Assembly (NCBI GenBank): GCA_020073665.1
Contig: JAIQEU010000001.1
Coordinates: 1-64,000 of the forward strand
DNA from: Terriglobia bacterium
Lineage (GTDB): Bacteria; Acidobacteriota; Terriglobia; Terriglobales; Acidobacteriaceae
DNA: 64,000 nucleotides
Direction: 5' to 3'
Shown here: piece after piece, positions 18,716-45,514 of the stretch
How positions within the stretch are numbered: the stretch's first letter is position 1
Layout of the letters: the number at the start of each line of letters is the position of its first letter
The notes under the pieces: generated by a model
Databases searched by the model: none
What the model was told of the DNA's origin: nothing
The model's input: only the letters and a program-made list of their open reading frames with translations
Translations under genes and position numbers: made by a program

Positions 18716-19528
18716 ATGACCAATCCTTATAGCGATATACTCGAGCGCATTCAGAGCGCTATGGAAGCTGCCCGCACCATCTTCAGCCGCTACACCGCCG
18801 GGGCGATCGCCGCCGAATACAAGGCTGGGCATGACCCGGTCACCGAAGCCGACCGAGCCCTGGACGCGGCGCTGCGCCAGAAACTTCTGCGCGATGGCGA
18901 AGGCTGGCTCTCAGAAGAAACCGTTGACGATTTATCGCGTTTGGACAAGAAACGTGTCTGGGTAGTTGACCCGCTCGACGGCACCCGTGAATTCGTAGCC
19001 GGCATCCCTGAGTTCTGCGTGTCTATCGCCATGGTGGAAGATGGCCGACCGATCGCGGGTGGAATCTGCAATCCCGCTACCAACGAGACTTTCCTGGGAT
19101 CGATCGCATCGGGCCTGCTGTACAACGGTAAACCGGCGCGGCCTTCACAGAAGACCAGCCTTGAGGGCACGCTCATCCTGGCCAGCCGCAGTGAAGTGAA
19201 ACGCGGCGAGTGGAAGCCATTCGAGAACAGCTCGTTTCAAGTACGGCCGATGGGCTCGGTTGCATACAAACTAGCTTGCGTATCCGCAGGCCTGGCCGAC
19301 GCGACATTCACGCTCACTCCCAAGAACGAGTGGGACGTCGCCGCAGGCACGGCACTGGTCTTGAGCGCAGGCGGATTTGTGAGCACGCTGGACAAAGCGC
19401 CGCTGCATTGCAATCAGAAGAACCCGTTGCTCTCAGGCTTGATAGCGTGCGGCCCGCAGCTTCGTGACGCATTGCTTGCGCAGCTTGAACCGCACCTGCA
19501 ACCCGCAGGAGCGCGCAGCGGCGTCTGA
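18716..19528 (+). CDS. cysQ: 3'(2'),5'-bisphosphate nucleotidase (CysQ)
   Basis: A 270-aa Mg-dependent phosphatase of the inositol monophosphatase superfamily. The metal-site motif DPLDGTREFVAGIPEF is visible near residue 85, and the second motif ends in NEWDVAAGTALVLSAGG. LSEETVDD supplies the early acidic ligand. CysQ converts PAP, the inhibitory by-product of every PAPS-dependent sulfotransfer, to AMP. Its place 18 bases behind the permease and close to PAPS synthase makes a three-step unit that makes PAPS, imports the sulfur source and clears PAP. Confidence 0.92.
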   Translation: MTNPYSDILERIQSAMEAARTIFSRYTAGAIAAEYKAGHDPVTEADRALDAALRQKLLRDGEGWLSEETVDDLSRLDKKRVWVVDPLDGTREFVAGIPEFCVSIAMVEDGRPIAGGICNPATNETFLGSIASGLLYNGKPARPSQKTSLEGTLILASRSEVKRGEWKPFENSSFQVRPMGSVAYKLACVSAGLADATFTLTPKNEWDVAAGTALVLSAGGFVSTLDKAPLHCNQKNPLLSGLIACGPQLRDALLAQLEPHLQPAGARSGV

Positions 19529-28613: not shown

Positions 28614-30425
28614 ATGCAGGTTCTGCGGTTTCGAGGATATCCATTTTTTCTTGTCATTCTCCTGACGCTGATTCCGTCATGCTCTTCCGGCGCAAGCCCG
28701 GCATCGTCGCCTGACGACGCTCCCGCCGCCGGCCGTTTTGATGGCCCTGCCGAACTCCCTCGTGTCTATGTGAAGAGTGCGATGGCTGATACGCCCGCTT
28801 CAGGCCGCGTCCGTACGGTACAGGCCAGCGACAACCTGCAGGATGCTATCGATAGTGCCAAGTGCGGCGACACCCTGAAGCTGCAGGCCGGCGCCACCTT
28901 CATCGGAACTTTCAGGTTACCCGGCAAGTCCTGCGACGATTCCCACTGGATTGTTTTGCGCACCAGCGCGCCGGACGAAAGCTTCCCTGCCGAAAGCACA
29001 CGCCTCACCCCGTGCTATGCCGGAGTTGCGGGGCTGCCCGGACGTCCCGACCTGCATTGCTCGGCCGTGAAGAACGTCATGGCAAAGATAGAATTCGACG
29101 GCAAGGGCGGATCGGGTCCATTGATATTTGTGGATGGAGCCAACCACTATCGCTTCATTGGGCTGGAAATCACGCGCAGCAATCCCGGCGCGAATATCTC
29201 GAATCTCGCCGCCCCACAACCGGGCGCAATCGTGCACCACCTTATTTTCGATCGGGTGTGGATGCACGGCACCGCGCAGGATGAGACCAAGGGCGGCCTG
29301 CATCTAAACGGCGCGACCTACGTGGCAGTAATCGATTCTTACTTCAGCGATTTCCACTGCATCGCTGCCGGCGGCGCCTGCACCGATGCGCAAACCATCA
29401 ACGGCGGCGGCGGTGACGCTCCTGGCGGTCCCTACAAGATAGTGAACAACTTCCTTGAGGCCTCCGGGGAATGCATTCTCTTCGGCGGCAGCGGCGGGAC
29501 GACCACCCCGACTGATATGGAAATCCGGCGCAATCATCTCTTCAAACCCATGATCTGGAAGCCAGACCAGCCGGGCTTTGTGGGGGCAGCTTCCGGCCGC
29601 CCGTTTATTGTGAAGAACCACTTCGAGCTCAAAAATGCACAGCGGGTGCTGTTCGAGGGCAATATCCTGGAAAACAACTGGGGTGGGTTCAGCCAGGCGG
29701 GTTTCTCGATTCTGCTCACCCCCAAAAACCAGTACGACAAGTGCCGGGATTGTAAGGTCACCGACGTCACCATTCGCTACAACAAGATCAGCCATGTCGC
29801 CGGCGCTCTCATGTTGGCGAACGCCCTGTCGGGCGCAAAAGTGCCGTCGGGCGGCGGCGGGCGTTATAGCATTCACGACCTGGTGGTGGACGACATCAGC
29901 GCTGAAGCCTACAAGGGCTTCGGATCATTCGCCATCATTGAATCAATCATGCCGCCGCTTAAGGACATCAAGATCGATCACGTCACCGCCTTCCCGCCGC
30001 GGGTGCTGATTTCTTTGTTAAGCGCTACCGATCGCCCGAAGATCGCCAACGTCACCATCACCAACAACATTCTTGGTGCCGGCAAGCGCCAGATCGCATC
30101 CGCCGGTGGCGGTCCGCAGAATTGCGCCTTCCATCAGGACCCCGAAGGCGTCATGAAGAACTGTTTCGAGAATGCCACCTTCAGCCACAACCTGATTGTG
30201 GGCGGGGGAGGAGGCTGGCCCGCAGGGAACATGGAGGCGAAGGACCCGGCCGCTTCCGGTATTCGCGACTTTCGCGAGAACGGCGGCAGTGATTTTCATT
30301 TGTGCAGGGAAAAGGACGAAGGGCGGTGCAGCAAGCCTTCGCCTGCGCTCCGCGCAGGAACTGACGGAAAAGACCTTGGCGCCGACATGGACGCTATCGA
30401 CAAAGCCACAGTGGGCGTGAACTAG
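28614..30425 (+). CDS. Right-handed beta-helix lipoprotein
   Basis: A 603-aa exported lipoprotein: a hydrophobic signal ends in the lipobox LIPSC near residue 23, then a Ser/Ala-rich linker leads to FDGPAELPRVYVKSAMADTP. The rest has the short beta-strand periodicity of a parallel beta-helix, with ANHYRFIGLEITRS, RVWMHGTAQDET and FELKNAQRVLFEGNILENNWGG-type rungs, ending GKDLGADMDAI. This fold is shared by pectate/alginate-type lyases and carbohydrate-binding surface proteins. AGGAAGGA at 28601-28608 supports the start. It is the intact counterpart of the broken gene at 22531-24854 but lacks the two Ig-like domains. It probably works at the outer membrane on the EPS. Confidence 0.82.
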   Translation: MQVLRFRGYPFFLVILLTLIPSCSSGASPASSPDDAPAAGRFDGPAELPRVYVKSAMADTPASGRVRTVQASDNLQDAIDSAKCGDTLKLQAGATFIGTFRLPGKSCDDSHWIVLRTSAPDESFPAESTRLTPCYAGVAGLPGRPDLHCSAVKNVMAKIEFDGKGGSGPLIFVDGANHYRFIGLEITRSNPGANISNLAAPQPGAIVHHLIFDRVWMHGTAQDETKGGLHLNGATYVAVIDSYFSDFHCIAAGGACTDAQTINGGGGDAPGGPYKIVNNFLEASGECILFGGSGGTTTPTDMEIRRNHLFKPMIWKPDQPGFVGAASGRPFIVKNHFELKNAQRVLFEGNILENNWGGFSQAGFSILLTPKNQYDKCRDCKVTDVTIRYNKISHVAGALMLANALSGAKVPSGGGGRYSIHDLVVDDISAEAYKGFGSFAIIESIMPPLKDIKIDHVTAFPPRVLISLLSATDRPKIANVTITNNILGAGKRQIASAGGGPQNCAFHQDPEGVMKNCFENATFSHNLIVGGGGGWPAGNMEAKDPAASGIRDFRENGGSDFHLCREKDEGRCSKPSPALRAGTDGKDLGADMDAIDKATVGVN

Positions 30426-30447: not shown

Positions 30448-31476
30448 CTACAGCCAGGACAGGTTCTTAGTAACGAAGTAGCGGCCCAGCGGAGTGTTGG
30501 CTTTTAGCCAAAGCCTCAGCGCGAAATAATTCAGTTGAGTCGCCCGCATTACTTTGAAGTGGGATGCTTGTCGCGCAGCATCTTCCCCGAAAGCCAGCGG
30601 GTACCCGAGGTCCTGCAAAGCGCCGCCAATCACACCTTCCAGCACTAATACATCCTGGCGAGGCAATTCGCGCCAGCGTCCTACAGGATTGAATACGCGT
30701 TCACCGCCGCCCGCCTGGAACGACGTGTTGGGCTCGGCCACCGAACCAATCGCCACCTCGCGGATGCGATCGTAGTCCAGATCCTGGTCGATGAACCGGC
30801 TTAGCTGCGCCAGCACGCGGCGGGGATCCTGGATGAGGTCCTCAAAGCGAACCTCGCAGTAGTCCGCGCCCAATCCACGGCCATCCTCCCGTCCCTTCCG
30901 CACCATCCACTCCCAATACAGCGCGCCCGCCAGGCGAGTGGAGCCGCGATACATGGGCAGCGGACGAATCCATTTTTGCTTTTCCAGTGACAGCGCTACG
31001 TCGCGCCCGTCGCGGATCACGTGAATGATGAGCGCGTCCGGAATCGTCTGCTTGATCCGGGGGAGGAAGAGCAGGTGCTCCGGAGTACATTCGGCCCAAC
31101 GTTCCACGCCCTGGTTGCGGGCAATCTCTTCCATGACGATGCGCAGGAAGTCGCCGCCATTGCGGCATTCGGCCAGCACTTTCTGCTCAATTTTCTCCGC
31201 GTCCAGACCGGAGATTTTGAACAGCTTGCTGTCGAGCCAGGCCGCCATTAACTTCTTCTTGTTGGTGAGGACGCTCAAGTCGCCGAAGCGTGGCTCCAGC
31301 AAGTTGATGGCGTGCGACTCGCTGCGATACACCGCAAACCCACCGGCGGACAGCAGCATGTGATACAGCAGAGTTGTCCCCGACCGCACGCAGCCCAGCA
31401 CGAACACCGGGGCTTTCGCTCTCGCCCTCGGCGTTTTCTCGGCCTCGGATTTGCCGGATGTGGTCGGCTGGCTCAT
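30448..31476 (-). CDS. Sulfotransferase C
   Basis: A 342-aa protein of the Sulfotransfer_3-like group. The 5'-phosphosulfate loop is VFVLGCVRSGTTLLYHML (residues about 25-42) and the 3'-phosphate motif is IIHVIRDGRDVALSLEKQKW. Its first base overlaps the FemAB-like gene by ATGA (31473-31476). It is the last gene of the algD-sulfotransferase-FemAB-sulfotransferase unit and is convergent with the beta-helix gene. It is clearly paralogous to the sulfotransferase at 32550 (shared LSAGGF, VLAEC, FLRIVMEE, DLDYDRI). A hydroxyl or amine of a glycan is the likely acceptor. Confidence 0.88.
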   Translation of the reverse strand: MSQPTTSGKSEAEKTPRARAKAPVFVLGCVRSGTTLLYHMLLSAGGFAVYRSESHAINLLEPRFGDLSVLTNKKKLMAAWLDSKLFKISGLDAEKIEQKVLAECRNGGDFLRIVMEEIARNQGVERWAECTPEHLLFLPRIKQTIPDALIIHVIRDGRDVALSLEKQKWIRPLPMYRGSTRLAGALYWEWMVRKGREDGRGLGADYCEVRFEDLIQDPRRVLAQLSRFIDQDLDYDRIREVAIGSVAEPNTSFQAGGGERVFNPVGRWRELPRQDVLVLEGVIGGALQDLGYPLAFGEDAARQASHFKVMRATQLNYFALRLWLKANTPLGRYFVTKNLSWL

Positions 31477-32516
31477 GGCTTCTTTTCGTCGAGCGGCGCC
31501 GCATCCTGCTTCGGCGCATGCTCCGCTTTCAACCAGCCGAGGAATTTTTGTTTGCGGACAAACATTTTTCGTGCTTCCTCACGCAGCCGGGAAACCACCT
31601 GATTACGCGACTTGATGAACCACGGGACCCGGTGCACCACGCAACCGTACTTTTCCTTGTAGGTGCCCTCGCCACCCCAGTCGTAGACCTCAACCCCGCG
31701 CTGCTTCCAGTAGCGCATCACATACCATTGAATCAATTCGTTGGGGCGCAGAATCTGGCTGGAGCGGAAGCTGGCGTTTCCCCAGAATTCGGTGATCTTG
31801 TTGAAGCCCGGGAAAATCCCGGTGGCAATGCACTTCCCTTCCGGATCACGCGCCCGCAAAAGCAGAACCCGCCCGGTAGGCTCCATGTGCTTGACCAGCG
31901 CCCGCACGCGCTCCACGGGATAAGTAGGCACCAGCCCCTGCTTGGCGAATACATCCTTCAGTTGCTCGTAGTACTCGTCGGCAAATGCGATGTCATGAGC
32001 CTCCTCCACGGTGACGCCGCTCTTCTCTGCCTTACGCACGCAACGGCGGCAGGCGCTGTCCATCTTGTTGAAGAGTTCCTCTTCTTGCAATCTCAAATCG
32101 GTGCGGTAGGAGGTATAGAAATCGCACTTGAAGCCCAGTGCCTTCCCGTCTTCGGGGACGAAATACGGGTCTGAGACTTCAATGTGCAGGCATTTCAATT
32201 CTTCCCAAGCCAACTCTTCCACTGCCTTCAGCGCGGCGGCACGCGAGGCATCGGGCACAAGATTGAAACCCATGTAAGGTGTCGTCCAGCCTGGGAAAGA
32301 GCTGCCCAGTACTTTCACACCAAACTTCGAGAAAGTCAGCCCAGTGAAATAGCCAGCCACGTTCTTGCCTTCACGCAACTCGACGACCAGCGGCGAGGCT
32401 TTCTGCGTCTCACTGACGAATCGCAGCCACTCGCGCGTCTGGAAGACGGTCCGGTCCGCAAACTTGTCCAGTAGCTCCCAGTCAACCGCGTCAAATTTTA
32501 TGATCTGGCACTTCAT
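31473..32516 (-). CDS. FemAB-like/GNAT-fold N-acyltransferase
   Basis: A 347-aa protein with the two-lobed GNAT pattern of FemAB-related enzymes: TVFQTREWLRFV near the N-terminus, then FNKMDSACRRCVRKAEKSGV (a lysine/arginine-rich segment typical of this group), FWGNASFRSSQILRPNELI and YDWGGEGTYKEKYGC. FemAB proteins transfer aminoacyl groups in peptidoglycan, and a related subgroup recurs in exosortase-A EPS loci. Here it lies between two sulfotransferases, 33 bases behind one and overlapping the other, so it probably acylates the same glycan, perhaps at an amine. The acyl donor is not identifiable. Confidence 0.8.
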   Translation of the reverse strand: MKCQIIKFDAVDWELLDKFADRTVFQTREWLRFVSETQKASPLVVELREGKNVAGYFTGLTFSKFGVKVLGSSFPGWTTPYMGFNLVPDASRAAALKAVEELAWEELKCLHIEVSDPYFVPEDGKALGFKCDFYTSYRTDLRLQEEELFNKMDSACRRCVRKAEKSGVTVEEAHDIAFADEYYEQLKDVFAKQGLVPTYPVERVRALVKHMEPTGRVLLLRARDPEGKCIATGIFPGFNKITEFWGNASFRSSQILRPNELIQWYVMRYWKQRGVEVYDWGGEGTYKEKYGCVVHRVPWFIKSRNQVVSRLREEARKMFVRKQKFLGWLKAEHAPKQDAAPLDEKKP

Positions 32517-32549
32517 TCGGCGTCCCAGGTTCCGATCTGCAATTGTCCG

Positions 32550-33536
32550 CTACTTGTCGATCAATATGTCGGAATAGCTCACCATCATGCGAGACAGCGG
32601 CGTATGCACCTTGGCCCACTGCTTGGCCTCGTAGAACAGGCTATAGATGAACCGCATCTTTCGCACTGCGAACCGGTTTTTCGTTTTGTCGCTCGTGCCG
32701 GAAGCAGCATAGCCCAAGTCCTGCAAGTAATCTCCGACCAGGCTCTCGAACCATACCAGTTGCTCCGGCGGAAACTTGTCTTTCCAGCGTCCGACCGGAG
32801 TAAAGCGCCCATCCTTCAAGTCTTCTTTGAACGAGGTAAGTGGACTCTTCAGCGACCCAATCCGGTCACGTTGAATGCGGTCGTAATCCAGATCGTGCTG
32901 CAGAAACTCACCGAGTCGCGGCAGAGTCTCGCGCGGCTGGTGCACCAGATCCTCGTAGCGTACCTCCATATAGCTCGGACCCAGCGCAGCGCCGTTCTTC
33001 CTGCCCATGCGGACAATCCACTCCCAGTAGATTCCGGCAGCCAGGAGGCTTTTGTCTTTGTCCCAGGGCAGTGGGCGGCTCCAGTGCCGCTTGTCGAGCG
33101 ACAGGGCCACATCGCGGCCGTCGCGGATGATGTGCACGAAGCGGGCGTCAGGAAAATCCTTCTTGATCCTCAACATGTGCGGAACATTGGTCGGAGTGGA
33201 GTCGATCCAGCGGTCCACACCTTGCTTGCGCGCCACCTCTTCCATCACGATGCGCAGAAAATCACTCGCGCCCGCGCACTCGGCCAGCACCTTGGCTTCG
33301 ATCTCACCAGCGTCCAAGCCGGACACCTTGAACGCCTTGCTCTGCAGCCACTCCTGCATCATCTTCTTCTTGTGGGCGGAGGAATTGAAGTTCCCGTAGA
33401 TCGGCTCCAGAACGTCGTACACGTTCATCTGGGTGTGGAACTCCACGAAGCCGCCCGCCGAGATAAGCAGGTGATACAGGAAGCTCGTGCCCGAGCGCGG
33501 ACAGCCCACGATGAACACCGGTGGCTTCATCAGCAT
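32550..33536 (-). CDS. Sulfotransferase D
   Basis: A 328-aa PAPS-dependent sulfotransferase. The N-terminal PVFIVGCPRSGTSFLYHLL is the 5'-phosphosulfate loop and FVHIIRDGRDVALSLDKRHW the 3'-phosphate motif. It shares long colinear stretches with sulfotransferase C, including FLRIVMEEVARKQGVDRW, so the two are duplicates flanking the FemAB-like gene. It starts two bases after the algD stop and is therefore translated with it. This contiguity links sulfation to a uronic-acid precursor more firmly than the other sulfotransferases do. Confidence 0.88.
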   Translation of the reverse strand: MLMKPPVFIVGCPRSGTSFLYHLLISAGGFVEFHTQMNVYDVLEPIYGNFNSSAHKKKMMQEWLQSKAFKVSGLDAGEIEAKVLAECAGASDFLRIVMEEVARKQGVDRWIDSTPTNVPHMLRIKKDFPDARFVHIIRDGRDVALSLDKRHWSRPLPWDKDKSLLAAGIYWEWIVRMGRKNGAALGPSYMEVRYEDLVHQPRETLPRLGEFLQHDLDYDRIQRDRIGSLKSPLTSFKEDLKDGRFTPVGRWKDKFPPEQLVWFESLVGDYLQDLGYAASGTSDKTKNRFAVRKMRFIYSLFYEAKQWAKVHTPLSRMMVSYSDILIDK

Positions 33537-33538
33537 GC

Positions 33539-34864
33539 CTACCAGCAGATTCCTTGATACTGAGCGGCGCCTTTAGGGCGGCGTGACGCATCCAGGTTGA
33601 CCAGGTCGAAGACGATTTGCCCCGGCGCCAGCAGGCCTTCGAGTTGGTCCTTCTGCACGCCCCGGGTGCCAATGATCACAACCTCGGCGCTCTTGACCAC
33701 CTGCTCCAGATCGGTGGAGAGCAGCGATCCGATGTGAGGTATGACTTCCTCAATGTACTGGCGGTTCGAGCCGGCCAGGTGTCCCAGCGACACGTCCTTA
33801 TCCCAGACGCGGAGCTGGCAGCCCTCACCCAGCAGCCGCTTGATGAGCTGGACCTGCGGGCTCTCGCGCAAGTCGTCGGTGCCCGCTTTAAAGCTTAAGC
33901 CCAGCACCGATACTCTCTTCTTCTTGGTGTGGAGTACCGCTTCCACCGCGCGATCCACGTGTTCCTGGTTACTCGGAAGGATGGATTCCAGCAGCGGCAG
34001 GCTCAGGTCGAGTTCCTTCGCCCGATAGCCCAGCGCGCGCAAATCCTTGGGCAGACATGATCCTCCAAAAGCGAAACCCGGCGAGAGGTAAGTGGGCGAG
34101 ATATTCAGCTTGGTGTCAGACGTGAAGATTGATGTCACCACTTGTGCATCCACGCCGAGGTGCTTGCACAGCGTGCCGATCTCGTTAGCGAAGCCCACCT
34201 TCAGCGCGTGGTAGGCATTCGACACGTATTTCACCATCTCAGCTGCGCCGATGGAGGTTTCGTAGATCGCCGCGGGCGTTCCCTGGTAAAGCTGGCGCAG
34301 CGCGGCTAGGTGCTCGCCATCCTGCGATCCGAGAATGGTGTAGGGGGGCTGCAGAAAGTCTCCCACGGCGCTGCCTTCGCGCATGAACTCGGGGTTGTAG
34401 CAAACCGTGAAGTCTTTGCCGGCCCGGCGGCCGCTGGCCTTCTCCAGAGTCGGAATCATCAGCGATTCGGTAGTTCCCGGAAGCACCGTGCTGCGCAGGA
34501 CCACCACATGGCGCGACTTCTTGTCTTTGAGGGCAGTGCCGATCTCTCCGGCAACGTGCTCAATGTGGCTCAAGTCGAGCTTGCCACTGCGCAGGCTGGG
34601 AGTGCCGACACAGACGAAGGTAATCTCGGAGTTGCGGACTGCCGCCACCGAATCCGTGGTGGCTTTCAGGCGACCGGCGCCGTGCGCCTCGGCTACCAGT
34701 TCGTTCATCCGGGCTTCGATAATCGGGCTGCGCCCCGAGCCCAGCATCTCCACCTTGGCCGGGCTGATGTCCACGCCAATGACACTGTGGCCCATGTGGG
34801 CAAAGCAAGCCGCGCTGACCGATCCCACGTAGCCCAAGCCAAACACACTGATCGAGAAACTCAC
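33539..34864 (-). CDS. algD: AlgD-like GDP-mannose 6-dehydrogenase (UDP-glucose/GDP-mannose dehydrogenase family)
   Basis: A 441-aa NAD-dependent sugar-nucleotide dehydrogenase that oxidises C6 to a carboxylate in two steps. The Rossmann motif SVFGLGYVGSVSAACF, the catalytic Cys in GFAFGGSCLPKDLRAL, and LGLSFKAGTDDLRESP are intact. As far as I can recall Pseudomonas AlgD, the resemblance extends along most of the chain and to the terminal GICW, favouring GDP-mannose over UDP-glucose; a profile search would settle this. GTG 34864 is chosen over the open frame beginning at 35041 because GGGGGAAGAG precedes it and the Rossmann strand follows at once. Its product, probably GDP-mannuronate, would make the EPS a uronate polymer. 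Confidence 0.85.
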   Translation of the reverse strand: MSFSISVFGLGYVGSVSAACFAHMGHSVIGVDISPAKVEMLGSGRSPIIEARMNELVAEAHGAGRLKATTDSVAAVRNSEITFVCVGTPSLRSGKLDLSHIEHVAGEIGTALKDKKSRHVVVLRSTVLPGTTESLMIPTLEKASGRRAGKDFTVCYNPEFMREGSAVGDFLQPPYTILGSQDGEHLAALRQLYQGTPAAIYETSIGAAEMVKYVSNAYHALKVGFANEIGTLCKHLGVDAQVVTSIFTSDTKLNISPTYLSPGFAFGGSCLPKDLRALGYRAKELDLSLPLLESILPSNQEHVDRAVEAVLHTKKKRVSVLGLSFKAGTDDLRESPQVQLIKRLLGEGCQLRVWDKDVSLGHLAGSNRQYIEEVIPHIGSLLSTDLEQVVKSAEVVIIGTRGVQKDQLEGLLAPGQIVFDLVNLDASRRPKGAAQYQGICW

Positions 34865-35187: not shown

Positions 35188-37545
35188 TTGGCGACCTCGG
35201 CATGGCGAACGAAATGGTCTCGCCTGACTCGTATGAGTTGGGACGAGTTTCGCACCCGTGTTGGCCAAGAGGCCGGCAAGCGGCTCGACCTCGCACTGTA
35301 TCGCGCCGGCCTGCATCCGTCCGTCGTCAGACTGAACGGTCAAGGTCCGGCCCCCGGAAGGTTCTTCTTTCTGGCGGACGAGTTGCCCTCGCGAGCCAGC
35401 CTGTTGCGCCAGCATCTGCCCGCACAGGTCGAAACCATCCTCAGCGAAGCCGACGAAATCTGCGCTCACCGGTTTCAATTGCTCGGGTACAACAGTCTCG
35501 ACTACGGCCCGGAGATCGACTGGCATCTCGACGCCGCACACGGCAAGCGCGCCCCGCTCAAACCCTGGTTCAAGATTGATTTTCTTGATTTCGCTGAAGT
35601 CGGCGATCACAAAGTCACCTGGGAACTGAACCGCCACCAGCACCTGGTCACCCTGGCGAAAGCCTGGCGCCTGACCCAGGACGAGCGCTATCCCAAAGAG
35701 TTATTGCAGCAGTGGTACGCCTGGCAACGCGCCAATCCCTATCCCCTCGGCATCAACTGGGGCAGCAGCCTGGAAGTGGCCTTCCGCAGTCTGTCCTGGC
35801 TCTGGGTGCGTTCCCTGCTGGCCGGTTGTCCGGCGGTCCCTGCGGCTCTCGAGACTGACTTGTTGCAAGCCTTGGCACGAAACGGGCGATACATCCACCG
35901 CTATCTCTCGACCTACTTCTCTCCCAACACCCATCTGATTGGTGAAGCGGTGGCTCTGTTCTTCATCGGCACGGTTTGTCCGGGGATTCCGGATGCCGCG
36001 AAGTGGCGCGGCCAGGGCTGGCAAATTCTGCTGCAGGCGGCCAAAGACCAGGTCCGTTTGGATGGCGTGTACTTCGAGCAGTCCCTCTACTATCACGTCT
36101 ATGCCTTGGACTTTTTCCTGCACGCGCGGCACCTAGCCGCCCACAATCAAATCGAGATTCCCAGCAACTTTGACCAGGCCTTGAGGAAAATGCTGGACGT
36201 GGTGGAGGCCGTCAGCCAATCCGGCCCGCCCGATGGCTTTGGAGACGATGACGGCGGCCGGGTCTTCAATCCGCGGCGCAACCGTGCGGAGCATTTGAGT
36301 GATCCGCTGGCGCTCGGCGCCACCACTTTCGGGCGCAACGACCTGGCGGGGGCAAGCCTCACCGAAGAGGCGATCTGGCTCTTTGGGGAGCAGACCGTCG
36401 CTTGCCTGGGTGAGCGCAGCGGCGCCCGAAGCAGGCCACAACCATCTGGTTTCGAAGCAGGCGGAATCTATGTGTCGGTGAGCCCGGAGAACGTAACCCA
36501 GCAGATGGTGATCGACGCCGGACCGCAGGGCACCGGCCGCAGCGGCCACGGACATGCCGATGCGCTCAGCGTGCGAGTAAGCGCAGACGGGCGTCGCTGG
36601 CTGGTTGATCCGGGCACCTACTGCTACATATCCGATAACGACGAGCGCAATCGCTTCCGCGGCACTGCTGCGCACAACACTCTGCGGGTTGACGGCCAGG
36701 ACCAGGCTGTTCCCGAGGGCCCATTCGCATGGGGTTCCCTGCCGTTGGTGCGGGCCGAGTGTTGGCTGACGGGCGAGACTTTCTCGCTTCTTACCGGCAG
36801 CCACACCGGCTATCTCCGGCTTCCCGACCCAGTGCTTCACCGGCGTTGTGTCTTTCATCTTTTCGGAAGTTTCTGGCTGGTGCTGGATAGCGCCACGGGA
36901 AGGGCGTCGCATGAGCTTGATATCTTCTGGCATTTTGCTCCCGACCTGAAGGTTCTGGAAGCGAAAGGTGGCTTCATAGCGGCACCCAACCCGGATGCCG
37001 CCAGCAGCACAGGCTTCGGGCTGCTTCCAGTCGCAAAATCCGACTGGAAGTGTGAAGTCGTTTCGGACTATGTCTCACCGGCATACGGCTGCAAGGTACC
37101 GGCAGCGGTGGTACGCATGAGTTCACGGGTTCAGTTGCCAGCACAAATGGCAACCGTGCTGTTCCCGTCGGTCCGCCACAGTGACCTCGGGGAACTCGGC
37201 GAAGTCGACGCCAACTCTGCTCGCGGCTATCGCCTCAGGCATGGCGATATAACCGATTATATGATCTTCGGTGAACGTGAAGGGGCCTCGTGGAGCTTGG
37301 GGCCTTGGGCCAGTGATGCCGATTTTCTTTACTGTGGCGTCGAAAACCAGCACGTCACCCATCTGGTTTTCTGCGGCGGCAGCTTCGTGAAAATCCAGGG
37401 GCAAGGGGTCCTCACCCATCACCGAAAAATCGAACGCTTCGAATGGCTCATTCAGGGGGGCGTGCGCCGGATTTTTTCGTCGGACGATACCGCGGGCCAC
37501 TCCCTTTCGGAAGGCCCGCTCGCATCCGGCGATCCTGTATTCTAA
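35188..37545 (+). CDS. Heparinase II/III-family lyase
   Basis: A 785-aa protein with an N-terminal alpha/alpha toroid (to about residue 370) and a C-terminal beta-sheet domain. Family residues are visible: NTHLIGE (about residue 247), EQSLYYHVYALDF, GHGHADALS (about 452), and DPGTYCY with RNRFRGTAAHNTLRVDG. The family eliminates uronate-containing glycans such as heparin, heparan and alginate. There is no signal peptide, as is usual for versions encoded in EPS loci, which may act in assembly or turnover rather than feeding. TTG 35188 is chosen because the family's short Trp-Arg-rich prefix precedes MSWDEF; ATG 35233 is the alternative. It is co-directional with the amidotransferase gene 24 bases downstream. 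Confidence 0.86.
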   Translation: MATSAWRTKWSRLTRMSWDEFRTRVGQEAGKRLDLALYRAGLHPSVVRLNGQGPAPGRFFFLADELPSRASLLRQHLPAQVETILSEADEICAHRFQLLGYNSLDYGPEIDWHLDAAHGKRAPLKPWFKIDFLDFAEVGDHKVTWELNRHQHLVTLAKAWRLTQDERYPKELLQQWYAWQRANPYPLGINWGSSLEVAFRSLSWLWVRSLLAGCPAVPAALETDLLQALARNGRYIHRYLSTYFSPNTHLIGEAVALFFIGTVCPGIPDAAKWRGQGWQILLQAAKDQVRLDGVYFEQSLYYHVYALDFFLHARHLAAHNQIEIPSNFDQALRKMLDVVEAVSQSGPPDGFGDDDGGRVFNPRRNRAEHLSDPLALGATTFGRNDLAGASLTEEAIWLFGEQTVACLGERSGARSRPQPSGFEAGGIYVSVSPENVTQQMVIDAGPQGTGRSGHGHADALSVRVSADGRRWLVDPGTYCYISDNDERNRFRGTAAHNTLRVDGQDQAVPEGPFAWGSLPLVRAECWLTGETFSLLTGSHTGYLRLPDPVLHRRCVFHLFGSFWLVLDSATGRASHELDIFWHFAPDLKVLEAKGGFIAAPNPDAASSTGFGLLPVAKSDWKCEVVSDYVSPAYGCKVPAAVVRMSSRVQLPAQMATVLFPSVRHSDLGELGEVDANSARGYRLRHGDITDYMIFGEREGASWSLGPWASDADFLYCGVENQHVTHLVFCGGSFVKIQGQGVLTHHRKIERFEWLIQGGVRRIFSSDDTAGHSLSEGPLASGDPVF

Positions 37546-37569
37546 GTATGTGGGGTGGTCAACGAGCCG

Positions 37570-39528
37570 ATGTGTGGAATCGCGGGGATAGTTCAATTTA
37601 AGGGCGACGCGCCGGTGGATGCCGCGGTCTTGCGGCGGATGTGCGACGTCATGGCGCACCGCGGGCCCGATGATGATGGGTTCTACCTGCAGGGCCGTGT
37701 TGGCCTGGGCATGCGCCGGCTCAGCATTATCGATCTCACCACCGGACACCAGCCGATCAGCAATGAGGACGGGACTCTGTGGATCGTCTTCAACGGCGAA
37801 ATCTACAATCACGCCCAGTTGCGCGAGCAGCTGCAGGCCCGCGGCCACCAGTACCGCACCCACAGCGATACCGAGACCATCGTCCACCTCTACGAAGAAT
37901 ACGGCCGGGATTGCGTTCAGCACTTGCGCGGCATGTTTGCATTCGCCATCTGGGACACGCGCACGCGGCGTCTGTTCGTGGCTCGTGACCGTCTCGGCAT
38001 CAAGCCTCTCTACTACCGCCTCACCTCCGATAATTTTGTGTTTGGTTCGGAAATCAAGGTTGTCCTCGCCTACCCTGACGTTCGCCGTGAGTTCCACCGG
38101 GCGGGCCTGCCGGAGTATCTCGCCTTTGGTTATCTTTCCGGTGAGGAGACCTTCTATCGTGGCATCCGTAAGCTGATGCCCGGCCACACCCTGGAGTTGG
38201 AAGAGGGCAAAGAGCCGAAGATCGCTCCCTACTGGGACCTCACCCTTAACCAGAGCGACTCGTCACACTCCGAGAGCTATTACATCCAGACCTATCGCGA
38301 GATGCTGGAGCAGGCGGTCAACAGCCACCTGATGAGCGATGTGCCGCTGGGGGTGTTTTTAAGCGGCGGTGTCGACTCGAGCGCCGTGGCCGCGCTGATG
38401 ACGAAAATCCGGCAGGCGCCGGTTGAGACCTTCTCTGTCGGTTACGCCGAGCACGCCTACAGCGAACTGCCTTACGCACGCATCGTGGCCAAGCACCTGA
38501 ACTCGGTTCATCACGAGGTGCTGCTGACGCGGGAAGGATTTTTCGATTCACTCCCCAAGTTGATCTGGCACGAGGATGAACCCATCACCTGGCCATCGAG
38601 CGTATCGCTCTACATCGTCGCCCAGTTGGCGCGCCAGCGGGTGAAGGTGGTTTTGACCGGCGAGGGCAGCGACGAGACTCTGGGGGGCTACTCGCGCTAT
38701 GCCTTTACTCTGAAGAACGCGGCAATGGACCGCTACTACCGAGGGCTGGTTCCTGACGCGCTGCGGCGCGGTATCCGCCAGTTTATTGCCGAGTCATCCT
38801 TGCTACACGCCACCACGCGCCGTAAGCTGTCGCACACCTTCTTGGGCTTGGACGGCAACTCGTGGGCCTCGTTCTACTTCGACAATTTCTTCTCTGCGTT
38901 CAATGAGCACGACCAGTCAGCCCTGCTGAACCCCGATCTCGCCGCTGAACTCACTCCCGGCTCCGCTTACCGCGACGTCATGGACTACTGGGAGCGTTCG
39001 TCCGGCGACCTTCTGGGCCGGTTGCTCTACACCGATATCAAGACCTACCTGGTCGAGTTGCTCATGAAGCAGGACAACATGAGCATGGCGGCCTCCATCG
39101 AGAGCCGGGTGCCGTTTCTGGATCATGTGCTGGTGGAATTTGCCACCAACATTCCGCGGAGATTTCAGCTGAAAGGACTGTCGGGCAAGCACGTCCTCAA
39201 GAAAGCCGTGGAAGACCTGCTGCCCCACTCCATTCTCTACCGGCCGAAGTTAGGGTTCCCCACGCCTTGGAGCGGTTGGCTGGCGGGTCCACAGCTCGAC
39301 ACGATCCAAGCGATGCTGCTCGAGCCTCGCAGCCTGGAACGCGGACTGTTCCAACGGGCAGCCGTGGAGCGCCTGTTTCAGGAGCATCGCGCAAATTACC
39401 GCGACCACTACGACCGCATCTGGCGGCTGCTTAACCTGGAGTTGTGGCACCGGGTTTGCTTGGAAGGCAAATCTCACGACTCCGGTGCCGGCGATGTGAA
39501 TGAAGCCAGGCTAGCTTCTCGGGTTTAA
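37570..39528 (+). CDS. AsnB-like amidotransferase 1
   Basis: A 652-aa glutamine-dependent amidotransferase. The N-terminal nucleophile is Cys2 (MCGIAGIV), with MAHRGPDDDG and FNGEIYNH of the glutaminase domain, followed by the ATP pyrophosphatase motif SGGVDSSAVAALM. ATG 37570 is required to place Cys at position 2; an upstream GTG would bury it. Exosortase-A loci usually carry two such proteins, thought to amidate carboxyl groups of the EPS or of a precursor. With an AlgD-like enzyme nearby, uronate amidation is an attractive idea, but free asparagine synthesis is not excluded. Confidence 0.88.
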   Translation: MCGIAGIVQFKGDAPVDAAVLRRMCDVMAHRGPDDDGFYLQGRVGLGMRRLSIIDLTTGHQPISNEDGTLWIVFNGEIYNHAQLREQLQARGHQYRTHSDTETIVHLYEEYGRDCVQHLRGMFAFAIWDTRTRRLFVARDRLGIKPLYYRLTSDNFVFGSEIKVVLAYPDVRREFHRAGLPEYLAFGYLSGEETFYRGIRKLMPGHTLELEEGKEPKIAPYWDLTLNQSDSSHSESYYIQTYREMLEQAVNSHLMSDVPLGVFLSGGVDSSAVAALMTKIRQAPVETFSVGYAEHAYSELPYARIVAKHLNSVHHEVLLTREGFFDSLPKLIWHEDEPITWPSSVSLYIVAQLARQRVKVVLTGEGSDETLGGYSRYAFTLKNAAMDRYYRGLVPDALRRGIRQFIAESSLLHATTRRKLSHTFLGLDGNSWASFYFDNFFSAFNEHDQSALLNPDLAAELTPGSAYRDVMDYWERSSGDLLGRLLYTDIKTYLVELLMKQDNMSMAASIESRVPFLDHVLVEFATNIPRRFQLKGLSGKHVLKKAVEDLLPHSILYRPKLGFPTPWSGWLAGPQLDTIQAMLLEPRSLERGLFQRAAVERLFQEHRANYRDHYDRIWRLLNLELWHRVCLEGKSHDSGAGDVNEARLASRV

Positions 39529-40227: not shown

Positions 40228-42536
40228 GCCACCACCGTCATTTCTGAAGCTGTCTCGCTTCGTACGGCAAGCGAACGATATACCTCGAGCCATTGCTCAC
40301 GGACTACGCCCCAGCAGTACCGCTTGGATTCCTGGTAAGCATTCGACGTCAGCCGCGAAGCCAGGTCCGCGTCCCGAAGCACTCGAAGCACATTTTCCGC
40401 CAGAGCATGCGCGTTCCCCGGCTCGGAAAGCAGCCCGGTCCGGCCGTCGTCAACCAGGTAGCTCATGCTTTCCGGGGCGGTCGTCACCACCGGTGTTCCG
40501 GAGGCAAACGCCTCCAGTACCGACACCGGCATGTTGTCGAGATTGGAAGCATTAATAAAGATGTCGGCCGCGTCGTAGAACTGGCCGATGTTCTGCCGCG
40601 TCGCGACTCCGGCGAAATTGACGCCTTCCAGCCCAAGGTCCTGCACCAGCTTTCGGATCTCCGCCTCCGAAGGCCCTCCGCCCACAAGGTCAAGCTTCGC
40701 TCGGGGAAAAAGTTTTTGCACTTCCGCAAATGCCCGCACGACGACGTCAACACTGTAATAAGGATGGAACCCACGCGTGCAAACCAGATGCGGACGCAGC
40801 TGCGGACGTGGACGGAATGAAAACTGCGACAAGTCGATGATGTTGGGAACCACTTGCGATTCGAGGCCGAACTCACGGAACACCTCCACCAGGTAACCCG
40901 AAGGGGCCACCAGCCGGTCCACGCGCTCGAGCACGGCACGCGCAAAACGTGAGCGCTGCAGATGGTCCCGAGCCTCGCCGCTGCGGTAGTTGATGATCGT
41001 CTTCTTTCCCCGCAGACGAGCCACGAACCACGCAGGCACGGGCGCCAGGAGGAATGACGAGTACGACGCAGAAAAAATGTGCGCAATGTCCGCGTGTTCC
41101 AAGCCTCGCCACAGTGCCGTCAGGTAAAGAGGCATGCGGACCAATGTACGCAACGCCGGAATGCGCTCGATCCAGGCCAGCAGTCGTGGCAGCGCAGGAT
41201 CCACCGGAATGAAACAGGCCTCAACGTCGGGATCGTTGTTCCACTGGCGCATGAGGAGATCGGCCTGCACCGCTTGTCCGCCGACATAGCGCAGGGTGGG
41301 CGCTACAATAGCGACCCGCAGTTTGCGGCCAGCAGGTGCAGCCGTGACCGAGGTTTGCGGACGCCAGCCCTTCTTCTCCAGCAGTTCGGTGTAAAGTTCC
41401 TCGTAGCGCAAGCGCATCCGCTCCAGACTGAAGTTTGCCTGCACGAATTGCCGGCTCATAGCGCCAACAGAGGCCCGCGTGTCGGAGTCTCTCAGCAATC
41501 GTTCCATAGCCGCGGCCAGCGCCGGCTCATCGCCGAGTGGAACTAGCAATCCACCGCCGTCACCCAGCAACTCGGGATTGCCTCCTACATTCGTCGCGAT
41601 GACGGGTACACCCGCTGCCATGGATTCCAAGACCGCGTTCGACAAGCTCTCCGAGTCGGACGGAACCACGGTCACGTCCAACGAAGCCAGCACCGCGGGA
41701 ATGTCTCTGCGGTCGCCCAGAAAACACACCTGGTCGCGTATGCCAAGCTCCTCGGCCTCGCGCTCCAGTTCCGGACGCAGCGGGCCATCGCCCACCAGCA
41801 CGAACTCCACATCAGGGAATTTGCCGCGCAGTCGAGCAGCGGCGCGCAGAAAATTGCTGTGGTTCTTGTACGGGTTATTCATGCGGGCAATCATGCCTAC
41901 GCGCAGCAGGCCAGGTCGAGCGGGCAACGACGGCTCGGTGCGAGCGAAGGCCTCAGGCGGCAAGCCATTGCCAATCACCACAATTCGCTTTTCAGACAGG
42001 CCCTTATCGGTCAGCCCCTGCGCCGCCGCGCGGGAGTTGCAGACCACCACGTCGCACCAGCGAAACATGACTGCTTGAATACGCGCCTGCCCGGGCGTCA
42101 TCAAGTCGCCAATCTGGCGCTGGCTTCCGATGATGACGGGAACGCACGCCAGGTGCGCTGCCGGAATCAGGCTGATGTTCGAATAGAAGTCGAATGCGTG
42201 CGCCACCACGATGTTGTGACGACGGAGATGACGCGCCAATCGAAAGCGCGTGCGCCAGGAATTGAGCCCGTGCGAACTGCCGCCCAGACGAAAGTGCGGC
42301 ACCTCGCCCAAGCCTTCCAGGAAGGGACCTTGCGGCTTGACGCACCCCAGGTGCCGGTGGAAGCGGCGCGGATCCAGAGACTGAGCCAGAGCGGCGAACT
42401 GGCGCTCGCTGCCACCCGTCTCCAGCGTGTTGATCATCAGGAACAGATCTGGAATCGTTTCCGGCCGCGGGTTCGCCTGCGGTGCACCTTCGGCGGTGGC
42501 TAGGCCTGGGGCTTCAGGACCCGCGTGGGAGGTCAT
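40224..42536 (-). CDS. Fused double GT4 glycosyltransferase
   Basis: A 770-aa protein containing two GT-B family 4 modules. The first (residues about 25-390) has NTLETGGSERQ at the N-lobe and SDSESLSNAVLESMAAGVPVIAT, the EX7E donor-binding motif, in its C-lobe. The second (about 405-765) starts with LRVAIVAPTLRYVGGQAVQA and ends with NMPVSVLEAFASGTPVVTT. Each half is the usual length of one enzyme, so two sugars could be added consecutively, or one half may be inactive. ATG 42536 overlaps the AsnB stop (ATGA). It belongs to the long EPS operon and acts on the cytoplasmic face. Confidence 0.87.
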   Translation of the reverse strand: MTSHAGPEAPGLATAEGAPQANPRPETIPDLFLMINTLETGGSERQFAALAQSLDPRRFHRHLGCVKPQGPFLEGLGEVPHFRLGGSSHGLNSWRTRFRLARHLRRHNIVVAHAFDFYSNISLIPAAHLACVPVIIGSQRQIGDLMTPGQARIQAVMFRWCDVVVCNSRAAAQGLTDKGLSEKRIVVIGNGLPPEAFARTEPSLPARPGLLRVGMIARMNNPYKNHSNFLRAAARLRGKFPDVEFVLVGDGPLRPELEREAEELGIRDQVCFLGDRRDIPAVLASLDVTVVPSDSESLSNAVLESMAAGVPVIATNVGGNPELLGDGGGLLVPLGDEPALAAAMERLLRDSDTRASVGAMSRQFVQANFSLERMRLRYEELYTELLEKKGWRPQTSVTAAPAGRKLRVAIVAPTLRYVGGQAVQADLLMRQWNNDPDVEACFIPVDPALPRLLAWIERIPALRTLVRMPLYLTALWRGLEHADIAHIFSASYSSFLLAPVPAWFVARLRGKKTIINYRSGEARDHLQRSRFARAVLERVDRLVAPSGYLVEVFREFGLESQVVPNIIDLSQFSFRPRPQLRPHLVCTRGFHPYYSVDVVVRAFAEVQKLFPRAKLDLVGGGPSEAEIRKLVQDLGLEGVNFAGVATRQNIGQFYDAADIFINASNLDNMPVSVLEAFASGTPVVTTAPESMSYLVDDGRTGLLSEPGNAHALAENVLRVLRDADLASRLTSNAYQESKRYCWGVVREQWLEVYRSLAVRSETASEMTVVA

Positions 42537-44470
42537 CCCATACCCCCGTGCATGGCGGCGGCCCCGGCGGGTTCTCCCAGGGTTGGCGTGCGAAATGTTT
42601 CCAGATAATTTCGGTGCCACAATTCGAACATCAACAGCCGCCAGATGCGGCCCGACTGGTCGCGGCGTCCGGTGAAGTGCTCATGCAGTATCTGGCGCAC
42701 CCCTTCCGGCCGGAAATATCCCCGCTGCAGTGTCCGCGGCTCGAGCAGCACCGTCATGATCAGGTCCTTCAGTTCGTGCCGGATCCAATGGACCAGGGGC
42801 ATGGCAAAGCCTTGCTTGCGCCGGTACAGCACATCGCGGGGCACACCTACGCGCTCGGCCAGCCTGCGCAGGACGTATTTCTGCGTCTTGCCGCGCAGCT
42901 TCCATTCCGGAGGCAGGCTGGTCACCAGCTCGACAAACTCATGATCCAGAATTGGCGCCCGGCATTCGAGCGAAGTCGCCATGCTCATGCGGTCGACCTT
43001 GGTCAGGATATCGCCGACCATGTAGGTCTTGGTGTCGACGTAGAGCATCTGGCTGACCGGGTCATCGCTCTTTGCCTGGTCAAAATAGGCGAGCATCTGG
43101 TTGGTCGGATCGGGCCCGCCGTTCAGAGATGCCCGGAAATCGTCGGTGAGCAGCGGCATATCTCGCTCGAACGCGGGGAGAAAGGAAATCCCGTCGACGT
43201 AGCGCTCCCGCCAAGGCAACGAAACGTTGTAGCTGAACTTGCGGCCGCGCATGTTAAGCGGCAAGCGCGGGTAAACCGCCTCTCGATAGAGGCGCCGCGC
43301 CCACTCCGGCGTGCGTGCGAAAATCTGGCGTTGCGAGTGAATTCGGTAGCGGTCATAGCCCGCGAACAGTTCGTCGCCGCCGTCGCCGGAGAGGGCGACA
43401 GTCACGTGTTTGCGCGCCAGGCAGGACACGTAGTAGGTGGGCAGCATAGAGGAATCACCAAACGGTTCCTCCAGCGAGCGCGTCAGCGTCTCGACGGTCT
43501 CCACCACGTCCGGCTCCAGGATCAATTCGTGGTGTTCGGTGGCAAAATGCTCTGCCACTCTCCGCGCGAAGGGAGCTTCGTTGAAATCGGCCTGCTTGAA
43601 TCCAATGGCAAAAGTTTTGACCGGCTTGGAACTCGCCCGCGCCATCAACGCGACGACGGTGGATGAGTCCGTGCCGCCGCTGAGCATGGCGCCTAGCGGC
43701 ACATCGGAAATCAGCCGGATGCGCACCGCTTCGGCCAGCTTGAATTCCAGCTCTTCCAGGCATTCTTCTTCGCTGCGCGGGTGGTGCGTGCCGTACTCCG
43801 GCAAGTCCCAATACTGTCGGACGCGCACCTCCCCTCGTTCATATTCCAGCAGGTGGCCCGGAGGCAGTTTCTGAATGGCCAGGAACGCCGTTTCCGGGTC
43901 GGGGATGTATCCGAAGTGAAGATATTGCAGAAGTCCCTGCGAGTTGACGTCGGCCAACTCAGGCGCCACCGCAAGGATGGACTTGATCTCTGACCCAAAT
44001 AACAGGCGGCCATTCACTGCCGCGTAATGGACCGGCTTCTTGCCCAGCCGGTCACGCGCCAGCAGCAAGCGCCGGCGCTTCTCATCGTAGAGAGCGATCC
44101 CAAACATGCCACGCAGCTTCGTAATGCAGTCCGAGCCCATGTCTTCGTAGAGATGGACGATGACTTCGGTATCGGAGTGGGTGTAGAAGCGGTGCCCGCG
44201 GGCTTCGAGTTCCTGGCGCAGTTCGGGGAAATTGTAGATCTCGCCGTTGAAGACGACCCAGACGGTGCGATCTTCGTTAAAGACGGGCTGGTGGCCCCCG
44301 GCCAGGTCAATGATGCTGAGGCGGCGCATGCCCAGGCCGGTGCCGTCCTTGACGAAAATGCCTTCGTCGTCGGGTCCACGGTGCACGATGGCCTGGCACA
44401 TCCGGTGGATGGTCGCCGACTCCACCCGGCTGCCGGCCTCAGTGCTAACGATTCCCGCGATTCCGCACAT
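42533..44470 (-). CDS. AsnB-like amidotransferase 2
   Basis: A 645-aa glutamine-hydrolysing amidotransferase related to that at 37570. Cys2 (MCGIAGIV), IVHRGPDDEG and FNGEIYNFPEL form the glutaminase domain. LSGGTDSSTVVALM, with Thr for Val, is the ATP pyrophosphatase motif, and SGDGGDELFAGYDRY is the AsnB loop. Its place inside the EPS operon between the methyltransferase and the GT4-GT4 gene matches the amidotransferases of exosortase-A systems. The two paralogues likely amidate different acceptors. Confidence 0.88.
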   Translation of the reverse strand: MCGIAGIVSTEAGSRVESATIHRMCQAIVHRGPDDEGIFVKDGTGLGMRRLSIIDLAGGHQPVFNEDRTVWVVFNGEIYNFPELRQELEARGHRFYTHSDTEVIVHLYEDMGSDCITKLRGMFGIALYDEKRRRLLLARDRLGKKPVHYAAVNGRLLFGSEIKSILAVAPELADVNSQGLLQYLHFGYIPDPETAFLAIQKLPPGHLLEYERGEVRVRQYWDLPEYGTHHPRSEEECLEELEFKLAEAVRIRLISDVPLGAMLSGGTDSSTVVALMARASSKPVKTFAIGFKQADFNEAPFARRVAEHFATEHHELILEPDVVETVETLTRSLEEPFGDSSMLPTYYVSCLARKHVTVALSGDGGDELFAGYDRYRIHSQRQIFARTPEWARRLYREAVYPRLPLNMRGRKFSYNVSLPWRERYVDGISFLPAFERDMPLLTDDFRASLNGGPDPTNQMLAYFDQAKSDDPVSQMLYVDTKTYMVGDILTKVDRMSMATSLECRAPILDHEFVELVTSLPPEWKLRGKTQKYVLRRLAERVGVPRDVLYRRKQGFAMPLVHWIRHELKDLIMTVLLEPRTLQRGYFRPEGVRQILHEHFTGRRDQSGRIWRLLMFELWHRNYLETFRTPTLGEPAGAAAMHGGMG

Positions 44471-44527: not shown

Positions 44528-45514
44528 CTAAGGAGTGCGTAGCTCCATACTCACAGTCTCCGGCTGTTGCCTGCGGGCACCGGTCGCGGGCTTGTGGCCC
44601 TTCACAGCGATAGGCGTTTCGATCACCCTCAAGTCCTCGAGGCCGCAGCTCTCAAACCAGCGAAACACCTGCTCATAGGTGTGTTTGGACTGGTACTTGG
44701 GGGCGTACCAATCGAACGTATCCAGCACCCGCCACTGCGGATTGGGATTCCGGTTGACCGGGAACAAGTGGTGGACAAAACCAGCCAGGGGGCGTCCCAC
44801 CAGGGGCAGCACGCTCAAGCCGCGGCCTAGGTTATAAAACGTTGGCACCGCCACCCTCAACGCTGCATGCAGAGAGCGTGGCGACATACGGGGCGTGACC
44901 TTGCGATAAATGTCGCTGAAGCGATACCACTTGTTGTACGCGCTGTAAAGCCAGACGGCCAGGATGCCACCGGGCTTCAGATATTGCGGCAAGACCTTCA
45001 CTGCCTGCTCGCAGTCGGGCGTGTGATGCAGCACCCCAATGCTGTAAATGATGTCGAAGCTTTCCGGCGCAAAAGGGAGCGCAAACACGTCGGCTTGCAG
45101 CGCGACAAAGTCCCGGTCCGCCAGGTTGCGTGCCGCCACTTCTGCCGCTGCGCTCAAGTCAATGCCCACCACGCGCGCGCCCCAGCGGGTGGCGACTTCG
45201 GCGTACCGGCCCATGCCGCAGCCCACGTCGAGTATCAGCTTCCCTCGGACTTCCTCCGGCGTCAGGCCAGCCTTCTTCAGAAAGTCTTCTTCGGAGTCGC
45301 GCTTGGTGGCGTCATCCAGCTGGGTGCGGGAATATTTCTGCCACTGAAAGCCGAAGCTGTCGGCATAGTTCTCGGGATCGACAAAGCGGGACACGCCGCG
45401 AGTGAAAGGAAAGCTCCGCCCGCAGCCCAGGCACTTGAACCCGCCGCCAGCCTCTTCCGCCATCCCGCCGTGACACGTGGGACAGCGCAGAATGCTTGCC
45501 AGATCAGCGGACAT
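44528..45514 (-). CDS. Zinc-ribbon SAM-dependent methyltransferase
   Basis: A 328-aa methyltransferase. An N-terminal zinc ribbon (LRCPTCHG and FKCLGCGRSFPF) precedes the SAM motif ILDVGCGMGRYAEVA, the acidic VVGIDLSAAAEV, and YSIGVLHHTPDCEQ. The C-terminal part after WLYSAYNKWY is membrane-proximal in character. ATG 45514 overlaps the polymerase gene by 11 bases. ATG 45547 is an alternative with a better purine tract, but it overlaps by 44. Zinc-ribbon methyltransferases of this type are common in O-antigen and EPS loci; the product probably caps or decorates the chain. Confidence 0.8.
   Translation of the reverse strand: MSADLASILRCPTCHGGMAEEAGGGFKCLGCGRSFPFTRGVSRFVDPENYADSFGFQWQKYSRTQLDDATKRDSEEDFLKKAGLTPEEVRGKLILDVGCGMGRYAEVATRWGARVVGIDLSAAAEVAARNLADRDFVALQADVFALPFAPESFDIIYSIGVLHHTPDCEQAVKVLPQYLKPGGILAVWLYSAYNKWYRFSDIYRKVTPRMSPRSLHAALRVAVPTFYNLGRGLSVLPLVGRPLAGFVHHLFPVNRNPNPQWRVLDTFDWYAPKYQSKHTYEQVFRWFESCGLEDLRVIETPIAVKGHKPATGARRQQPETVSMELRTP

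Follow-up and report, generated by a model that had tools for sequence, protein, structure and literature searches.

Two described systems offer the nearest comparison for the locus analysed here. The synechan (xss) cluster of the cyanobacterium Synechocystis 6803 is a Wzx/Wzy-type exopolysaccharide (EPS) system whose two sulfotransferase genes belong to different subfamilies; the parts of that study considered here give the polymer as rhamnose, mannose, galactose, glucose and sulfate (Rha:Man:Gal:Glc:sulfate) with no uronic acid, and report no AlgD, FemAB, exosortase or PAPS (3'-phosphoadenosine 5'-phosphosulfate) cassette (PMC8205485). The sulfated capsular polysaccharide (CPS) cluster of the marine Vibrio sp. 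KMM 8419 holds PAPS synthesis genes and sulfotransferases within the locus, a combination that the corresponding parts of its report treat as a hallmark of sulfated polysaccharide clusters; they describe ABC-transporter export and a rhamnose-containing CPS and mention no AlgD-type enzyme (PMC11641403). A third point of reference is the XrtA/PEP-CTERM type of EPS locus, with an exosortase, an AsnB-like amidotransferase, a FemAB-like protein and a Wza/Wzz/ATPase set. Here, we analysed 64,000 nucleotides (the window) of a Terriglobia bacterium of the family Acidobacteriaceae (contig JAIQEU010000001.1, our contig C27, of a 5.4-Mb genome that is the sole one of its genus in our sample of 398 family genomes). 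The window carries a four-gene operon for an AlgD-like dehydrogenase, two sulfotransferases (D and C) and a FemAB-like protein, which shares its logic with the synechan and KMM 8419 loci and differs from them in its predicted GDP-mannuronate enzyme, its Fem-type transferase, its exosortase context and its acidobacterial host.

We consider it reasonably probable that these genes are a single modification operon within an EPS cluster, adding mannuronate, sulfate and an amino acid to the same repeat unit. All four are read from the minus strand (positions 34864-30448) and follow one another in the same direction, first algD-like, then sulfotransferase D, the FemAB-like gene and last sulfotransferase C, with 2 nt from the algD stop to D, 33 nt from D to FemAB and a 4-nt ATGA overlap between FemAB and C, exactly as the original prediction had given them, to the base. 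Pfam assigns all three NDP-sugar dehydrogenase domains to the first protein, PF13469 to both sulfotransferases and PF13480/FemAB-like GNAT to the third. An upstream algD start (ATG at 35041, 500 aa) was rejected because homology begins at residue 4-5 of the 441-aa form. Since the operon is flanked by a convergent plus-strand beta-helix gene (ending at 30425) and a divergent plus-strand heparinase II/III-like gene (starting at 35188), it can be a single transcription unit, and this gene arrangement makes one transcript for all four genes plausible. A sigma-70 consensus scan gave no promoter, a promoter/terminator scan gave nothing above shuffled sequences, and an Rfam scan of the 64-kb window gave no matches. 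The tight spacing had also been read as an argument for one common product. The spacing itself stands, but as an argument it fails: across the window, the spacing between neighbours on one strand is 40 nt or less in 23 of 39 cases, with the same 4-nt overlap in six, so that close packing alone is not unusual here and was not used as evidence.

Support for the grouping comes instead from related genomes, in which 43 FemAB loci were found. AlgD lies directly upstream of FemAB, or with sulfotransferase D in between, in 28 of these 43 loci, and in three more a contig end interrupts the locus. Sulfotransferase D takes this intermediate position in four loci, and its orthologues (70-73% identity) are found beside or near FemAB in loci L026, L010, L036 and others. 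A co-directional sulfotransferase follows FemAB in 25/43 loci, and the succession AlgD-FemAB-sulfotransferase occurs in 17/43. Judged by gene order, the conserved unit is a looser, recurrent AlgD-(sulfotransferase)-FemAB-(sulfotransferase) module, with the heparinase and AsnB-like genes usually as its divergent neighbours. Locus L177 (G259:C485) seems to have its sulfotransferase D gene, which is located between algD and femAB, broken into two fragments, possibly by frameshift or assembly error.

The FemAB-like protein exceeded the threshold of only one Pfam model, PF13480 (Acetyltransf_6). It scored 23.4 bits against PF02388 (Pfam FemAB, gathering score 24) and 50.3 bits against TIGR03019 (XrtA-associated FemAB, NCBIfam cut-off 260), and because both values are below threshold neither family counts it as a member; the latter score also sets it apart from the FemAB-like proteins of XrtA/PEP-CTERM loci. 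Its structure model (pLDDT, predicted local distance difference test, 86) matched the Fem ligases and the tRNA-dependent streptothricin synthases Sba18/Sbb17 at Z scores of 22.9-27.9 over about 270-300 residues, with 14-20% identity, and more weakly the MprF-type aminoacyl transferases (Z 16-19). Given this Fem-type tRNA-dependent transferase fold, the protein probably adds an amino acid, and the model suggests as the most likely reaction that tRNA donates the aminoacyl group and an amino sugar receives it, presumably with a sugar amine as acceptor, unlike in the Fem ligases and Sba18/Sbb17. The original prediction had spoken of an "acylating" step; a transfer role is retained, and aminoacylation fits the predicted fold better than plain acylation. 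The protein could alternatively be an acetyl-CoA or acyl-CoA GNAT enzyme that acetylates the polymer, as its single Pfam match suggests, with the remainder of our interpretation unchanged. We regard this as unlikely, though a real contender, since Z is 23-28 for the Fem-type enzymes that depend on tRNA but does not exceed 14.4 for those using acetyl-CoA.

Both operon sulfotransferases score above the PF13469 cut-off and carry the 5'-phosphosulfate-binding (5'-PSB) and 3'-phosphate-binding (3'-PB) motifs. C and D are 48% identical, and two further sulfotransferases in the cluster, A and B, are 57% identical, so that the cluster holds two paralogue pairs. The listed open reading frame of B overlaps A, its start probably being placed too early; the tandem A/B pair (10210-11966) adjoins a Gfo/Idh/MocA oxidoreductase and an epimerase. 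A sulfation cassette at 16.1-19.5 kb encodes a PAPS synthase, a TauE-type transporter and a CysQ-like phosphatase. The polysaccharide locus thus contains PAPS synthesis and four sulfotransferases, a hallmark named for sulfated polysaccharide clusters (PMC11641403). Elsewhere in the genome (G000 contig C7:23365-23970, locus L216), a further PF13469 sulfotransferase is encoded about 16 kb from a TuaD-like UDP-glucose dehydrogenase, possibly a second sulfated-glycan locus.

That AlgD and sulfation serve together, as originally proposed, gains support from their association across the 398 genomes. PAPS synthase is present in 64 of the 78 genomes with the near AlgD clade and in 30 of the 320 that lack this clade (Fisher p 1e-36), a genome-level figure inflated by shared ancestry, with two genera giving most of the genomes. 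Counted per genus, PAPS synthase occurs in 13/19 with and 13/60 without the near clade (p = 4e-4), and in 31 of the 64 genomes carrying both genes these are at most 25 kb apart on one contig; genus-level figure and physical linkage are the safer statements. For a distant AlgD clade (mostly 45-55% identity), with PAPS synthase in 3/31, no link was seen. These data bear on a further interpretation, that the genes are co-transcribed for different glycans, AlgD and FemAB acting on the XrtA-type EPS and the sulfotransferases on another carbohydrate or a lipid. FemAB-sulfotransferase pairs do occur without AlgD, which agrees with this, as does the varying type of sulfotransferase after FemAB (PF00685 in relatives, PF13469 here). 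However, the co-occurrence and linkage of the AlgD clade with PAPS synthase, and the location of PAPS synthase and all four sulfotransferases within the same EPS cluster, make separate products rather improbable.

The identity of the dehydrogenase was assessed by tree, diagnostic residues and structural relatives, all of which point to a GDP-mannose dehydrogenase (GMD)-like enzyme as originally predicted. Its best solved relative is the Pseudomonas aeruginosa GMD 1mfz (440.7 bits, full length), followed by UDP-glucose dehydrogenase (UGDH) at 237 bits. In a maximum-likelihood tree that included one characterised GMD, it falls into a clade with P. aeruginosa AlgD (PaAlgD; support 98/93), while four UGDH references and the TuaD-like enzymes of the same genome form a separate clade (96/96), and WecC also stands apart; E. 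coli Ugd is on a very long branch, its placement being unsure. An analysis of 229 sequences named His217, Leu126, Ala263, Arg122 and Cys213 as GDP-mannose-specific positions, His217 contacting the mannose 2''-hydroxyl and being replaced by Leu in UDP-glucose enzymes and by Arg in UDP-N-acetylmannosamine (UDP-ManNAc) enzymes (PMC4794789). The window enzyme has the first four, with Ser at the Cys213 position, which is partly conserved across the family (25/45), and it retains the catalytic Cys268 and Lys210. The His217 position is His in 107 of 108 relatives, and Leu, Arg and Val in the three other full-length family members of the genome. On tree and residues, a UDP-glucose or UDP-ManNAc placement was rejected, and on sequence grounds the dehydrogenase is AlgD-type. 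Its nearest relatives are from Terriglobia/Acidobacteriaceae metagenome assemblies. Members of this family are often misannotated, and the enzyme has diverged from PaAlgD (PDB 1mfz, 1mv8), with Ser and Thr in place of Arg259 and Tyr256 and a Wzx/Wzy cluster setting in place of an alginate operon. Nevertheless, use of UDP-glucose or another NDP-sugar, which would place glucuronate instead of mannuronate in the EPS, appears improbable given the four diagnostic residues, the tree position and the presence in the genome of another enzyme, a TuaD-like UGDH, whose key position is Leu. Candidate enzymes for GDP-mannose supply appear to be encoded by adjacent genes on contig C42, resembling mannose-1-phosphate guanylyltransferase (GMP), phosphomannose isomerase (PMI) and phosphohexomutase. 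A UDP-glucose-dehydrogenase-family protein of 422 aa on contig C20 (268989-270191; locus L118:1501-2766) has Phe for the catalytic Cys and Arg for the catalytic Lys, and is possibly a non-catalytic or altered member of the family.

The operon sits, as far as gene content tells, in a complete Wzx/Wzy, XrtA-type EPS cluster of roughly 50 kb (Table 1). Besides the exosortase EpsH, Wza, Wzz, the priming transferase and a sigma-54-type regulator, by which XrtA/PEP-CTERM EPS loci are recognised, it encodes a CapB/BcsQ-like ATPase and several glycosyltransferases of families 2 and 4 (GT2 and GT4); the sulfation module is additional to the known loci of this type. The Wzx/Wzy set, the priming transferase and the several glycosyltransferases make it more likely that a heteropolysaccharide repeat contains mannuronate as one residue among others. 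The product predicted as most likely from these genes is therefore a heteropolysaccharide that bears sulfate and includes a mannuronic-acid residue, as opposed to a homopolymer of the alginate kind. Of the "sulfated mannuronate-type polymer" originally proposed, mannuronate and sulfation are kept, and the polymer type is an overreach.

A sulfated alginate-like mannuronan, with mannuronate as main backbone sugar, processive polymerisation, and the beta-helix and heparinase-like neighbours as epimerase and lyase, is very unlikely, because what the AlgD-type enzyme, the heparinase II/III-like neighbour and the beta-helix protein (alginate lyase and AlgE modules matched at Z 25-27) would offer in its favour is set against a heteropolysaccharide-repeat set of Wzx, Wzy, Wzz, priming transferase and GT2/GT4 enzymes, no recognised synthase-type alginate gene (Alg8/Alg44) in the annotated window, and a beta-helix match common to tailspikes, NosD and polygalacturonases. 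The model of the beta-helix protein (pLDDT 89.5) reached Z 26.6 to the alginate lyase 6kfn and about 25 to AlgE4/AlgE6 and RbmB, but tailspikes and NosD score at Z 24, and PfbA is also within 2-3 Z, so that we limit the claim to the fold and did not use this neighbour as proof of mannuronan processing. A search for PF16822 (AlgX) was empty, its control likewise being without any match.

For the favoured reading of one modification operon, we infer the following substrates, acceptors and order of steps. The AlgD-type enzyme would convert GDP-mannose to GDP-mannuronate, and a glycosyltransferase would place mannuronate on a lipid-linked repeat of several sugars. The best candidate for this transfer is the GT4 enzyme at 46902-48140, as it falls into a fully supported clade (SH-like approximate likelihood ratio test, SH-aLRT, 100) with 15 GT4s encoded directly downstream of algD, a few of these loci being the same genome represented twice; in this other set of loci, AlgD is followed directly by the GT4 gene. 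PAPS would be supplied by the ATP sulfurylase/APS (adenosine 5'-phosphosulfate) kinase of the cluster, with its by-product removed by the CysQ-like phosphatase, and sulfation of the repeat would be cytoplasmic and due to D and C, joined by the A/B pair from another part of the cluster. Using aminoacyl-tRNA as donor, the FemAB-like protein would attach an amino acid to an amino group on the repeat. The unit may then pass to Wzx for flipping, to Wzy for polymerisation and to Wza for export.

Several observations weigh against this scheme. The exact four-gene order, whose conservation had been expected, is found in 0 of the 43 related FemAB loci, because the sulfotransferase after FemAB is usually of the A/B type (PF00685) instead of the C type. 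FemAB occurs without the AlgD clade in 5/43 genomes, some of them incomplete, and is missing from 40/78 AlgD-clade genomes; as each is found without the other, not all four genes are required for one product. The tree rests its GMD assignment on one biochemically proven enzyme from which the window protein is clearly diverged, the exchanges at Arg259 and Tyr256 are a caveat for substrate binding, and the GDP-mannose pathway genes on contig C42 are all below the NCBIfam curated cut-offs. The shared ancestry behind the genome-level co-occurrence belongs to the same account.

Table 1. Predicted features of the operon and the surrounding EPS cluster (window positions).
Feature	Position	Strand	Basis or remark
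AlgD-type GDP-mannose 6-dehydrogenase, first operon gene	33539..34864	-	441 aa; tree, diagnostic residues, PDB match
Sulfotransferase D	32550..33536	-	PF13469, 328 aa; PAPS motifs PRSGTSFL, RDGRDVALS
FemAB-like aminoacyl transferase (probable)	31473..32516	-	347 aa; predicted fold; weak TIGR03019 match
Sulfotransferase C	30448..31476	-	PF13469, 342 aa; 48% identical paralogue of D
Sulfotransferase A	10210..11076	+	PF00685
Sulfotransferase B	10860..11966	+	PF00685; tandem paralogue of A, 57% identical
ATP sulfurylase/APS kinase fusion (PAPS synthase)	16142..17887	+	Equivalog match; sole PF01747 ATP sulfurylase in genome
TauE/SafE-family transporter	17930..18697	+	Sulfation cassette
CysQ-like 3'(2'),5'-bisphosphate nucleotidase (3'-phosphoadenosine 5'-phosphate removal)	18716..19528	+	Best model CysQ, 126.5 bits, below cut-off
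GT4-family glycosyltransferase, candidate GDP-mannuronate user	46902..48140	-	Clade with GT4s downstream of algD
Wzx-type flippase	14229..15797	+	
Wzy-type (O-antigen-type) polymerase/ligase	45504..46856	-	
Priming polyprenyl-phosphate sugar transferase	49281..50654	-	PF02397
Wzz-type chain-length protein	52547..54088	-	
Wza-type export protein	55630..56241	-	
Exosortase (XrtA/EpsH)	57548..58627	+	
Right-handed beta-helix protein, lipoprotein-like N-terminus, convergent neighbour	28614..30425	+	Uronan lyase/epimerase-like predicted fold
Heparinase II/III-like protein, divergent neighbour	35188..37545	+	Pfam; conserved beside AlgD
AsnB-like amidotransferase, XrtA-system type	37555..39528	+	TIGR03108 618 bits, below cut-off 817
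Second AsnB-like amidotransferase	42533..44470	-	

Among the remaining neighbours, the heparinase-like protein has heparinase III among its relatives. The uronate carboxyl could be what the two AsnB-like proteins amidate, if they act as the uronamide enzymes of O-antigens do. Large beta-helix proteins of the type at 28614-30425 occur two or more times per EPS cluster in relatives (L013, L020, L047, L048, L030). At 26629-28380, a formyltransferase-like N-terminal region is fused to a GINT1_N (glucosamine inositolphosphorylceramide transferase N-terminal) region, which is an unusual domain combination for a bacterial EPS cluster.

In 2021, sulfated polysaccharides were described as exclusively cyanobacterial among bacteria, as far as the considered parts of that study state (PMC8205485), and those found from later work come from marine bacteria (Vibrio, Cobetia, Pontiella). 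A literature search for sulfotransferases and polysaccharide biosynthesis in Acidobacteriota found nothing, which is weak evidence of absence as few subscription journals were covered. The AlgD-sulfation-FemAB type of combination has so far been described mainly in marine bacteria and cyanobacteria, and sulfate, mannuronate and aminoacyl groups were not described together in the literature searched. We tentatively put forward, as a possibility still short of an even chance, that the heteropolysaccharide of soil Terriglobia carries sulfate, mannuronate and aminoacyl groups and could be zwitterionic, its repeat unit being the target of a tRNA-dependent ligase of the Fem type. If true, there would be new sulfotransferases to test, along with what may be an aminoacyl transferase that depends on tRNA and works on polysaccharides, and sulfated matrix chemistry, with a predicted composition, would extend to land and to common soil acidobacteria.

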